Shown here: positions 4,285 through 6,920 of the stretch, piece after piece
Position numbering within the stretch: position 1 is the first letter of the stretch
How the letters are laid out: each line of letters begins with the position of its first letter
Source of the DNA: Xanthobacter autotrophicus
GTDB taxonomy: Bacteria > Pseudomonadota > Alphaproteobacteria > Rhizobiales > Xanthobacteraceae
NCBI RefSeq assembly: GCF_030015065.1
Contig: NZ_JAIVFN010000006.1
Location: 1-64,000, forward strand
Direction: 5' to 3'
Length of the DNA stretch: 64,000 nt
Made by a program: the position numbers and the translations under genes
Notes under the pieces: generated by a model
Seen by the model: the letters and a program-made list of their open reading frames with translations, nothing else
Database searches by the model: none
What the model was told of the DNA's origin: nothing

Positions 4285-5091
4285 TCACGGCGCGGGCGGG
4301 ATGACCACGCCGCCGGAGAAGCCCTGTATGGTCCATTCATAGGGCGCGGCGCTGGTGCGGAAATTGCCGAGGCGCGGCGCCGCGAGGTCGAGAATATCGA
4401 CGATCACGACCGTCCACATGAACATCAGCAGCACCACGAGCAAAGGCTTGCTCCTCCCCCTCAGTCCGAGCTGGTAGCCGACCGAAGCCGTGCTCAGTAG
4501 CGTCATCAGGATCAGAAGCCAGAACAGCTGGGGTGGCAGTCGCGTCTCCATGGCGAGCCGCTCGGCGGTGCTCATGTCGAACGTATCGTTGATCGCCGCC
4601 ATCAGCGAGGCCGACACCGGATTGGGCTGCTCCCGGACGATGGCCGCCACGTGCCCCCATATGGTTGACTGCAACGCGCTGGTCTTCTGGTTCAGCGCAT
4701 TGATCCGGGCCGTGTCGAGGCCGGCCGTCACGAAGTCCGCGCGGACCTTCGTGTACTGCTCCAGCAGGGTGGCGATCGCCTCGGCGCGGGGCGTCCCGAC
4801 CGCCTTGGCCCGCAGCCAGGCGGTGCCGATGGCGTTGGCCTCGGCGAGCGTTCCCGTGCGGCGCTCGCTGAACCTTGTGTTGGCGAAGGACAGCGTCAGC
4901 GCCAGCACGAAGGCCATCAGGGCCAGCATGCCGCCGACGACCACGCCCACGCCCTCCATCTGCGTCGTCGCCCGGGCCTTCTCCCGCCGCCCCATAAAGA
5001 CGCCGATCCTGTGGGCGACGAGCTGGGCCACAAGCAACAGCGCCCCGAAAGCGACAATGCTCTGCTCGGCAATTCCGGCAAGAAACGCCAT
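4285..5091 (-). CDS. Bestrophin-like (DUF4239-type) membrane protein
   Basis: A 268-aa predicted inner-membrane protein. Hydrophobic segments lie near residues 5-30 (SIVAFGALLLVAQLVA) and 48-72 (GVVVGGMLALMAFVLALTL), with a pair near the C-terminus (LFWLLILMTLLSTASVGY and LLVVLLMFMWTVVIVDILD). The segments flank a roughly 100-residue soluble helical region, a layout typical of the DUF4239 bestrophin-like family. The function is unknown; a channel role would be inference only. The start at 5091 (MAFLAG) is chosen because the 27 residues upstream are polar and Pro/Gly-rich. Confidence 0.75.
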   Translation of the reverse strand: MAFLAGIAEQSIVAFGALLLVAQLVAHRIGVFMGRREKARATTQMEGVGVVVGGMLALMAFVLALTLSFANTRFSERRTGTLAEANAIGTAWLRAKAVGTPRAEAIATLLEQYTKVRADFVTAGLDTARINALNQKTSALQSTIWGHVAAIVREQPNPVSASLMAAINDTFDMSTAERLAMETRLPPQLFWLLILMTLLSTASVGYQLGLRGRSKPLLVVLLMFMWTVVIVDILDLAAPRLGNFRTSAAPYEWTIQGFSGGVVIPPAP

Positions 5092-5219
5092 CGCCCCGCC
5101 TCCCGGCCTGCCGCTCCTCGTCGCGCCCTGGGGCGCTTTCGCGATTGGCCTATTGCGGGGGCCGGTTGTCAATCAAAGTCCGGCGAGAGGGTATTTATGC
5201 ACCGCGCTGCGTATCCGCC

Positions 5220-6230
5220 TCACGCCGGCTCGTGCGCCATGCCGGCCACCACCGCGTCGAGCAGGTCCCCGGCAGCGGCGATCTGCGCCTCCGTCACGTC
5301 GAGGGACGGCAGGAACGCCAGCACCTCGCCGATGGCGCGCACGCTCACGCCCCGCTGCCCCAGCTGTTCCGCAAGCGCCTCCGCCTCGGCGGGGCCGATG
5401 CAGACAAGGCCCTGCATCAGGCCCGTGCCAACGACGTTGCAGAACAGGTCGGTCCGGCGCCAGCGCAGGGGGGTGAGCCGGTCCTCCAGCTGCCAGCCCA
5501 GCGCCTGGATCCGCCCCTCGAAGCCGGGCGCCAGCGCCGCGGCGAGGATGTCGCGTGCGAAACCCAGCGCCTCATCGGCCACGGACGGGCGGCCATTGGG
5601 CAGCGCGCGCGCCCATTTCGCGGTGAGCACCAAGGCGGCCAGCGGCAGGCCGGCGCCCTCGCCCACCAGCATCAGATCCGGCGTCACGCCGGTCCATTCA
5701 TGGGCGAAGGCCATGCCGGTGCGCCCGAGGCCGGCGTCGGTCTCGTCGAAGACCAAAGCGATGCCATATTCGTCCGCTGCCTCGCGCAGCTCGGCGAGGA
5801 AGGAGCCCGGCAGCATCTCGATGCCCGCCGCAAGCCGCACCGGGGCGACGAACAGGCCCGCCGTCCTCGGCCCGATGGCGGCGCGCACCGCGCCGATCTC
5901 GTCGGGCATGCGGCTGACCTCCGCATCGCCGGCAAATTCCGGCGGCAGCGGCGCATCCCCGGCGCAGACCAGCAATTCCCGCCGCTTGGGCCGTCCGGCG
6001 ACGCGGTGCTGGGCGCGGACGGTGTCGAGGATCACCCGTCGCGCCGCGGCGGCCGAGGGCAGCAGCACCGCCGTGTCGCCGAAGGAGTGGGCGACGAGGA
6101 GGTCCACGAGCCCGCCCGCATCCGGGGCGGCCGCCTGCTCCAGAGGCGCAGGTGCCCCGACGAGACACGCGCCGGAAAAATCGACGGGCGCGGCGCCTTC
6201 CTCGGGCGGTTCTGGCGCAAGTGTGGACAT
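5220..6230 (-). CDS. Class III aminotransferase homologue lacking the PLP lysine
   Basis: A 336-aa protein related to acetylornithine/GABA-type (class III) aminotransferases. The recognisable core is VFDETDAGLGRTGMAFAHEW followed by GVTPDLMLV, equivalent to the family's FDEvqtGlGRTG...PDi. Where the family has the Schiff-base lysine (AKaLGGG), this protein reads VGEGAGLP, with Glu in its place. The phosphate-binding SGAEA region is also replaced (LLPSAAAARR). It is about 70-100 residues shorter than normal enzymes. It is therefore either a pseudoenzyme or a degraded paralogue. The ATG at 6228-6230 has GGAGG upstream, and the reading frame is open, so it appears to be expressed. Confidence 0.75.
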   Translation of the reverse strand: MSTLAPEPPEEGAAPVDFSGACLVGAPAPLEQAAAPDAGGLVDLLVAHSFGDTAVLLPSAAAARRVILDTVRAQHRVAGRPKRRELLVCAGDAPLPPEFAGDAEVSRMPDEIGAVRAAIGPRTAGLFVAPVRLAAGIEMLPGSFLAELREAADEYGIALVFDETDAGLGRTGMAFAHEWTGVTPDLMLVGEGAGLPLAALVLTAKWARALPNGRPSVADEALGFARDILAAALAPGFEGRIQALGWQLEDRLTPLRWRRTDLFCNVVGTGLMQGLVCIGPAEAEALAEQLGQRGVSVRAIGEVLAFLPSLDVTEAQIAAAGDLLDAVVAGMAHEPA

Positions 6231-6372
6231 GACACCTCCGGCGCCGACATCCGCCGGCGGCTTCAACGACAGCGTGCGCCCGCAGGGGGGCGGCCTCAAG
6301 CGGTCACAGCACCGCAGGGCCGGCGGCGGCCGGCCCGGCCCCTCCCCCTGCGCCGGACTGAAACCGCCCGGC

Positions 6373-6768
6373 TCAATCGTACTTCAGGTACGAGAAACGC
6401 AGATCGTGCTGGGGCGTGCCCTCCAGCGGAGCGTCGGGCGCAGCGCCCGGCTGCCACATCACCACCTCCTCGATCTTCTGCGCCAAAGCGAAGTCGCGCA
6501 CGGTGATGCCCTTGGCGTCGTGGGACTGGAGGCGCACCTCCACCCAGGCGTAGGAGGCTGTGAGGTCGGGATGATGCCAGGCCGCCTCGGCGAGATGGCC
6601 CACGGCGTTGATCACCATAAGCGTGCCCTTCCAGCTGTTGGTCTTGTAGGTGCGACGGATCCAGCCGTCCTCCAGGCGCCAGTGGGGAAGATCCGCCTTC
6701 AGGCGGGCCTCGATCTCCTCCGGGCTGAACGTCTTCTTGCGGTCGATGGTCTGGCTTTGGGTGGTCAT
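6373..6768 (-). CDS. phhB: Pterin-4a-carbinolamine dehydratase
   Basis: Dehydrates 4a-hydroxytetrahydrobiopterin, the step that regenerates the pterin cofactor of aromatic amino-acid hydroxylases. The 131-aa protein contains the family signature: W at WRLEDGW, the active-site stretch AEAAWHHPDLTASYAWVEV, then SHDAKGITVRDFALAQKIEEV. It is about 25-30 residues longer than the minimal family, with extra sequence at both ends. The internal ATG at 6768 (MTTQSQTIDRKK) is preferred over an upstream 33-codon extension. No phenylalanine hydroxylase is nearby. Confidence 0.92.
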   Translation of the reverse strand: MTTQSQTIDRKKTFSPEEIEARLKADLPHWRLEDGWIRRTYKTNSWKGTLMVINAVGHLAEAAWHHPDLTASYAWVEVRLQSHDAKGITVRDFALAQKIEEVVMWQPGAAPDAPLEGTPQHDLRFSYLKYD

Positions 6769-6920
6769 ATGCGGTCTCCCGAAGCCGGCGCGGCGGCACG
6801 GTTGGAAACGAAACGCAGGATTGATCTGCCACAGGGCGCGGGGCGCCGGCGAATGCTGTATATCCACAACGCCGCAGGGCCCGCCGCGCCGGTGCGCGGG
6901 CCGCAGCCGATGGGAGCATC

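Follow-up and report, generated by a model that had tools for sequence, protein, structure and literature searches.

The gene at positions 5220 to 6230 of the window, by which we mean the whole stretch of 64,000 nucleotides of Xanthobacter autotrophicus DNA analysed here, encodes a homologue of class III aminotransferases with a glutamate at the position of the lysine that forms the Schiff base with pyridoxal phosphate (PLP). This raises the question of whether the product is an enzyme with a different chemistry, a pseudoenzyme retained for another purpose, or a decaying duplicate of ArgD, the acetylornithine aminotransferase.

An ArgD-derived gene without the cofactor lysine

The locus comprises the following features.

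5220..6230, minus strand: pseudoenzyme gene, ArgD-derived, 336 aa, with ATG at 6230 and stop at 5220 (coordinates include the stop codon)
6235..6239, minus strand: ribosome-binding site GGAGG, conserved in close Xanthobacter orthologues
5658..5660, minus strand: codon of Glu191, which aligns with the Schiff-base lysine that holds PLP in ArgD
6042..6059, minus strand: PSAAAA, residues 58-63, at the place of the PLP-phosphate loop NSGAEA
5742..5747, minus strand: Asp162-Glu163, a retained cofactor-site pair shared by all 31 complete pseudoenzymes and all 35 ArgDs
6373..6867, minus strand: PhhB (pterin-4a-carbinolamine dehydratase) gene, directly upstream of the pseudoenzyme gene
4285..5172, minus strand: gene for a bestrophin-like (DUF4239) membrane protein, downstream of the pseudoenzyme gene

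The 336-aa protein matched the Pfam family Aminotran_3 (PF00202) with an E-value of 1.7e-30 and 106.5 bits, for a cut-off of 30.5. In NCBIfam, its best relatives were acetylornithine transaminases, with 148.6 bits for PRK01278 (cut-off 372) and 92.9 bits for argD (cut-off 410.05), a score below the ArgD equivalog threshold. The genome of the window strain (G000) encodes five class III proteins, among which the pseudoenzyme has the lowest score (105.6 bits), and a complete ArgD-type protein with the lysine motif AKGIGGG is found elsewhere in this genome (G000:C181, 397 bits).

An earlier note on this DNA had reported a Glu at the PLP lysine, an altered PLP-phosphate loop, an intact core and an open frame with a good ribosome site, and each of these observations was borne out. 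Upon alignment with the genuine ArgD of the same genome, the segment VAKGIGGG corresponds to VGEG--AG in the window protein. The loop NSGAEA has become PSAAAA and the GAFHGRT segment is deleted, while the core FDETDAGLGRTG...GVTPDLMLV is retained; the 336-aa frame is open, with GGAGG four bases before the ATG.

Loss of the cofactor site across the family

Residues were counted in an alignment of 35 ArgDs and 32 members of the pseudoenzyme family. The family frames were picked by a pattern that included DE[TS] and GRxGM, to which none of the 32 loci was lost. A lysine-containing pattern served to pick 29 of the 35 ArgDs, and a listing that did not require the lysine showed AK[GA] in every one of these 29. 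For the lysine site, 31 members were counted, the half gene of genome G012, truncated by a prophage, being left out, and all other sites were counted over the 32.

Lysine-bearing homologues had been named beforehand as the finding that would speak against a pseudoenzyme. Within the family, none of the 31 complete members has the Schiff-base lysine, which is present in 35 of 35 ArgDs. Because all full-length members are without it, Glu191 is not a product of chance or sequencing error. The residues found instead are His (18), Glu (6), Arg (2), Gly (2), Tyr (1), Ser (1) and Asp (1), the register of this site being uncertain in three Xanthobacter members with an insertion (G001, G003 and G009).

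The remainder of the pocket is affected as well, the stacking, substrate, phosphate and carboxylate roles of its residues being those usual in class III enzymes. In the SGA phosphate loop, Gly is replaced by Glu (19 of 32), Ala (9), Arg (3) or Ser (1), and the phosphate Thr (GST), which the partner subunit contributes to the phosphate cup, occurs in no family member. The ring-stacking Phe of the FHGR segment, found in 35 of 35 ArgDs, is either deleted or exchanged for Ala, Ser, Glu or Gln in all 32, and the substrate Arg of the same segment is missing throughout. The substrate Glu has given way to Ala in 28 members, Ser in 2, Pro in 1 and Val in 1, and the carboxylate Arg to Gly in 23 and Ala in 9. 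In ArgDs, the substrate Arg and Glu, the phosphate Gly and Thr, and the carboxylate Arg are each invariant (35/35). The Asp-Glu pair of the FDE motif is kept in all 32 family members, including the pyridine-nitrogen Asp (Asp162). What is conserved in the family is the loss of the cofactor site, and Glu is one of several replacements.

Several positions are specific to the family, being shared by at least 30 of the 31 members and by at most 3 of the 35 ArgDs. These are S19, R65, K82, D102, A146, Y155, M173, W246, E249, D250 and Q273. K82 is the only lysine invariant in a 20-row alignment of the family, and it replaces an ArgD Glu in a different segment.

These data bear on the possibility of an enzyme with changed chemistry, in which Glu, His or another cofactor would operate in the old pocket. 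The invariance of Asp162 and Glu163 and the new near-invariant polar residues, such as E249-D250 and Q273, would fit such an enzyme. However, the lysine site is free to vary (7 kinds of residue among 31 members), the single invariant lysine lies elsewhere, and neither the phosphate cup nor the substrate residues remain, so that we regard this alternative as improbable. Glu as a conserved catalytic replacement was rejected, since it occurs in 6 of 31 members only, and the Glu-based chemistry considered in the earlier note is not supported at a site this variable in a dismantled pocket. Members of the family are very probably not PLP transaminases.

Selection versus decay

All 31 complete copies are open frames. 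The ratio of nonsynonymous to synonymous changes (dN/dS) was 0.23-0.43 by the NG86 method in 20 pairs of pseudoenzyme genes, and 0.12-0.52 by YN00 in the 19 pairs for which it could be computed. In 11 Xanthobacter pairs, NG86 values ranged from 0.23 to 0.54 for the pseudoenzyme versus 0.04 to 0.24 for ArgD (for the pseudoenzyme in the pair G000-G012, over the first gene half only, 204 codons), and within a given genome pair the pseudoenzyme ratio amounted to some 2-8 times the ArgD ratio. Between G000 and G013, the identity of the pseudoenzymes is 45% versus 84% for ArgD. The pseudoenzyme is constrained, though more loosely than the ArgD enzyme.

A decaying ArgD duplicate under relaxed selection would account for this faster evolution, for the absence of the gene from G008 and G010, and for its disruption by a prophage in G012. 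Yet the complete copies are open without exception and have acquired new invariant residues, NG86 dN/dS does not exceed 0.54 in any of the 20 or 11 pairs, and the ribosome site is retained in close relatives. This reading, already disfavoured, is most improbable. Intact frames, dN/dS values of 0.23-0.54 and new invariant residues therefore point to a selected pseudoenzyme. The earlier note had likewise argued against simple decay and considered a pseudoenzyme possible, and this view is upheld by the absence of Lys from 31 members, the intact frames and NG86 values below 0.55 in every pair. Scattered substitutions indicative of relaxed selection, the other finding named beforehand as adverse, were encountered at the lysine site and, as judged from the dN/dS excess over ArgD, partly overall, but they do not describe the whole protein.

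The orthologue of G012, whose chromosome has 5,308,934 bases, is split by ca. 39.8 kb of prophage-like DNA (G012:C1:4970643-5010445; loci L036 and L037). The insertion is flanked by the 5-base repeat GTGAC, and the genes at its ends include those of a winged-helix repressor, a ParB-like protein and a tail collar protein. These features suggest a transposable, Mu-like phage.

Distribution and origin

A search of the window genome and 60 relatives identified the gene in the window genome itself and in 11 of the 13 other Xanthobacter genomes (12 of 14 in all), G008 and G010 being the two without it. In the 47 genomes of other genera among these relatives, the best match per genome was distant, with 30-38% identity. 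The closest relatives of the window protein, with up to 77% identity, are from Xanthobacter, and matches of at least 42% identity that bear names belong to Xanthobacter, Methylocapsa, Methylosinus and Methylocystis/Methylocystaceae. A scan of 84,980 species was based on two peptide patterns, and further members may exist.

Profile searches with a 20-row profile covered samples up to the order level. In an order-wide sample of 397 genomes, only the window copy exceeded 250 bits, and the 29 loci ranked after it, with 224-246 bits, had AK[GA] without exception. The sample of the window's family (198 genomes) yielded 10 copies above 280 bits, all in Xanthobacter (10 of the 11 sampled), followed by a match at 224. 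In the family of Methylocystis rosea (298 genomes), 20 carriers scored 504-574 bits and the next match 229.5. Hereafter, carriers and loci are designated as Methylosinus-, Methylocystis- or Methylocapsa-type based on named matches and the tree.

Maximum-likelihood analysis of 31 members and 12 ArgDs placed the family on one side of a 100/100 branch, and the stems are long (0.5 and 1.13 changes per column); since the tree was midpoint-rooted, calling the family a clade assumes a root outside it. A lysine-bearing ArgD is also present in 10 of 10 Xanthobacter carriers checked, and five methanotroph genomes have second matches at the ArgD level (175-201 bits, by score only). Among the 20 matches listed in a plasmid search, one is a family member, WP_161915212.1 of Methylosinus sp. 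C49, encoded on the 325-kb plasmid pMSC49a (L219:7920-8978). The other 19 matches listed have at most 39% identity, and none comes from a known carrier genus. A literature search, by title or abstract start, returned no report on this or a similar class III pseudoenzyme.

Predicted structure

AlphaFold2 modelling of the window protein with 11 Xanthobacter sequences gave a pLDDT of 82.5 and a pTM of 0.82, the other four models averaging 67-70. Residues 1-12, 173-178 and 334-336 have a pLDDT below 50. The best PDB matches retrieved by Foldseek with the predicted structure are acetylornithine aminotransferases (2ord, E 2e-22, TM 0.77), and structural alignment of the model to an ArgD-type PDB entry with VIA-align gave a Z-score of 33.3 over 318 residues at 2.9 A. 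The model of a Methylocystis family member reached a pLDDT of 81.5 and a pTM of 0.79. According to these predictions, the aminotransferase fold of ArgD is retained despite the loss of the cofactor site.

Gene neighbourhood

The PhhB and pseudoenzyme genes form a pair on the same strand in 9 of the 12 Xanthobacter carriers, including G011, which has a different wider neighbourhood. No PhhB motif was found within 1.5 kb upstream of the pseudoenzyme gene in G006, G013 and G004, nor in the three methanotroph-type loci checked, one each from Methylocystis, Methylosinus and Methylocapsa. In G013 and G004, the gene adjoins genes whose products, named from the G013 translations alone, look like a CobW-type GTPase, a nitrite reductase and a siroheme synthase. 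The neighbourhoods in Methylosinus and Methylocapsa differ again, and an AHSA1-like neighbour was seen in Methylocystis only. Across the whole family, the pseudoenzyme behaves as a free-standing gene. An operon partner deduced from the context was rejected as a general answer, the neighbourhoods being lineage-specific.

Two further observations concern adjacent genes. The DUF4239 gene lies between rimO and the pseudoenzyme gene in the window and in G002, and not in G005, G007 or the G012 fragment; as it occupies this place only in the first two of the loci compared, it is not part of a conserved unit. In the Methylocystis locus L208:11080-13409, the AHSA1-like gene (a match made in one genome) lies upstream of the pseudoenzyme gene, and the 211-aa protein encoded downstream of the Methylocystis pseudoenzyme had no Pfam or NCBIfam match at E 0.01.

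Association with nitrogen fixation

Genes nifH and pmoA were searched in a set of 80 genomes selected from the preceding matches, comprising 14 Xanthobacter, all 20 methanotroph-family carriers, and 46 of 278 non-carriers that were hand-picked in rough steps, all of at least 3.2 Mb. A nifH above the cut-off was found in 30 of them (9 Xanthobacter, 17 methanotroph-family carriers and 4 of the 46 non-carriers). For nifD, 34 of the 38 genomes searched were above the cut-off, namely all 12 Xanthobacter carriers and G008, 17 of the 20 methanotroph-family carriers, and the 4 nifH-positive non-carriers. Carrier G666 has nifD in two pieces, G693 has, besides matches that score like other nif genes, only nifH fragments, and neither nifH nor nifD was found in G436. 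Short fragments in the nifH search of the non-carriers G565 and G680, aligned from position 3 like lower-scoring paralogues, were not counted. Mo-nitrogenase genes (nifD or nifH) are found in 31 of 32 carriers, in two as fragments only. Carriage of the pseudoenzyme almost implies nif, fragments counted, and nif does not imply carriage. The two Xanthobacter genomes without the pseudoenzyme differ, G008 being nif-positive and G010 having no nifD.

In G000, G006, G007 and G009, nifH occurs as short fragments, at least some of them at contig ends, and nifD is intact. This fragmentation probably results from the collapse of two near-identical nifH copies during assembly.

Methanotrophy was considered as the shared trait and rejected, pmoA being found in 19 of the 20 methanotroph-family carriers and 2 of the 46 non-carriers versus none of the 14 Xanthobacter genomes. 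It is therefore nif, and not methane oxidation, that both carrier groups have in common. In 9 of 9 Methylocystis-type genomes, the pseudoenzyme gene is located 18-19 kb from nifH on the same contig (from a nifH fragment in G666 and G693), a linkage seen only in these genomes. Since the carriers are concentrated in a small number of clades, ancestry confounds their co-occurrence with nif. Taken with the promoter-like sites described below, this co-occurrence tentatively links the family to nitrogen fixation, with rather less than an even chance in our judgement.

Sigma-54-like promoter sites

An excerpt of PMC3538637 gives the RpoN -24/-12 consensus as TGGCACG-N4-TTGCW and prints the NifA element as TGT-N10-AGA; the element searched here was TGT-N10-ACA. 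Beyond about 40 bases ahead of the ATG, the one stretch of invariant bases in all nine Methylosinus-type loci is TGGC-N7-TTGC. Eight of these sites score 9/10 (shuffle P 0.00-0.02) and one 8/10 (P 0.07), and none of 83 other genes in these loci, a few of them counted in overlapping loci, reaches 9/10 within 150 bases. All nine Methylocystis-type loci have a TGGC[TG]TGAGCCTTGC site (8/10) ahead of the AHSA1-like gene, which is followed by the pseudoenzyme gene, and Methylocystis nifB (named by reading) and nifH bear sites of the same form in that region.

The shorter pattern GGC-N7-TTGC occurs in 7 of 12 Xanthobacter leaders, for a background of 1 in 123 genes. With the full 10-position score, none of the 12 is clearly above shuffles (P 0.10-0.93), and the window leader has a degenerate site (CTGC, 6/10 positions). 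In Methylocystis, the short pattern is weak evidence because 23 of 148 genes have it, a count that includes the AHSA1 gene itself as well as nif-linked orthologous loci and two that overlap. No sigma-54-like site was found near the start in two Methylocapsa-type loci, the exact pattern TGT-N10-ACA was absent from the 32 upstream regions (up to 1 kb), and NtrC-like sites were not found upstream of family copies. The promoter-like sites of the methanotroph relatives provide indirect support for a putative control of the pseudoenzyme gene by sigma-54.

The failure of the Xanthobacter leaders in the shuffle control lowers our confidence in the explanation favoured below and raises that in an alternative, namely that the tie with nitrogen fixation reflects ancestry only and that the protein acts elsewhere, for instance in pterin metabolism with the adjacent PhhB. 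The Xanthobacter PhhB pair, kept in G011 as well, argues for it, as do the weak sigma-54-like evidence in this genus and the nif-positive genomes without the pseudoenzyme (G008 and four of the 46 non-carriers). However, the six loci devoid of an upstream PhhB motif, three of them methanotroph-type, and the same-form sites of Methylocystis nifB and nifH are less easily accommodated. We consider this alternative a serious minority possibility.

Proposed role

The best explanation overall, which we favour by a little over even chances, is that of a neofunctionalised, ArgD-derived pseudoenzyme serving nitrogen physiology. The protein would have diverged long ago from an ArgD-type (acetylornithine) class III aminotransferase and have lost PLP binding and transamination, while the aminotransferase scaffold would have been kept as a binding surface. 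It may then operate as a non-catalytic partner or regulator during nitrogen-limited or nitrogen-fixing growth. We infer such a binding or regulatory role, and the protein might act by binding another one, whether ArgD itself, PhhB or a nitrogen-fixation protein. It is conceivable, if somewhat unlikely, that it is an RpoN-controlled accessory protein of nitrogen fixation with an ArgD fold, which would use its repurposed scaffold to link nitrogen status with another protein, one of nitrogenase maturation, arginine synthesis or pterin metabolism. Such an accessory protein, with the same doubtful standing, would be previously unrecognised and, in the genomes searched, confined to Xanthobacter and type II methanotrophs.

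More specifically, the favoured explanation could take the form of an inactive subunit that pairs with the true ArgD, or with another class III enzyme, in a mixed dimer and modulates this enzyme. The pseudoenzyme scores nearest to ArgD-type transaminases, its large-domain core is retained in the model, and a lysine-bearing ArgD accompanies it in the Xanthobacter carriers checked, but ArgD is near-universal and its co-occurrence is uninformative. In class III enzymes, the N-terminal segment and the GST-GGNP loop reach the active site of the partner subunit. Both are missing or replaced in the pseudoenzyme, and the native dimer contact may not form. We view the mixed dimer as unlikely, both as an explanation in itself and as a form of the favoured one.

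Whatever its partner, the family offers a bacterial, genetically tractable example of an aminotransferase fold retained for something other than catalysis, and suggests that nitrogen physiology in Xanthobacter and methanotrophs may include a component that has yet to be studied. Metabolic models that treat such genes as transaminases would be wrong.

Comparison with known systems

The closest known system is ArgD (PRK01278; PDB 2ord, 4jev and 4adb), with which the pseudoenzyme shares the same predicted fold and the FDE, GxGRTG, EW-GVTPD and G-G-L motifs. Unlike ArgD, it is devoid of the Lys, the phosphate loop, the stacking Phe, the substrate Arg and Glu, the Thr and the C-terminal Arg, and its N-terminal arm is a short, variable segment modelled with low confidence. 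Within the family, the plasmid-borne WP_161915212.1 is 43% identical to the window protein and shares GRPKRR, DES, GRSGM and EWTGV. This protein is recorded as an "aminotransferase class III-fold pyridoxal phosphate-dependent enzyme", yet has a His at the lysine site.

A further parallel is provided by LCB1/SPTLC1 of serine palmitoyltransferase, a lysine-less homologue of fold-type-I PLP enzymes that serves as a non-catalytic subunit modulating LCB2. As in the pseudoenzyme, the Schiff-base lysine has been lost from a fold-type-I homologue that was kept. In contrast to the pseudoenzyme, LCB1 belongs to the alpha-oxoamine synthase family, is eukaryotic and has a known catalytic partner.
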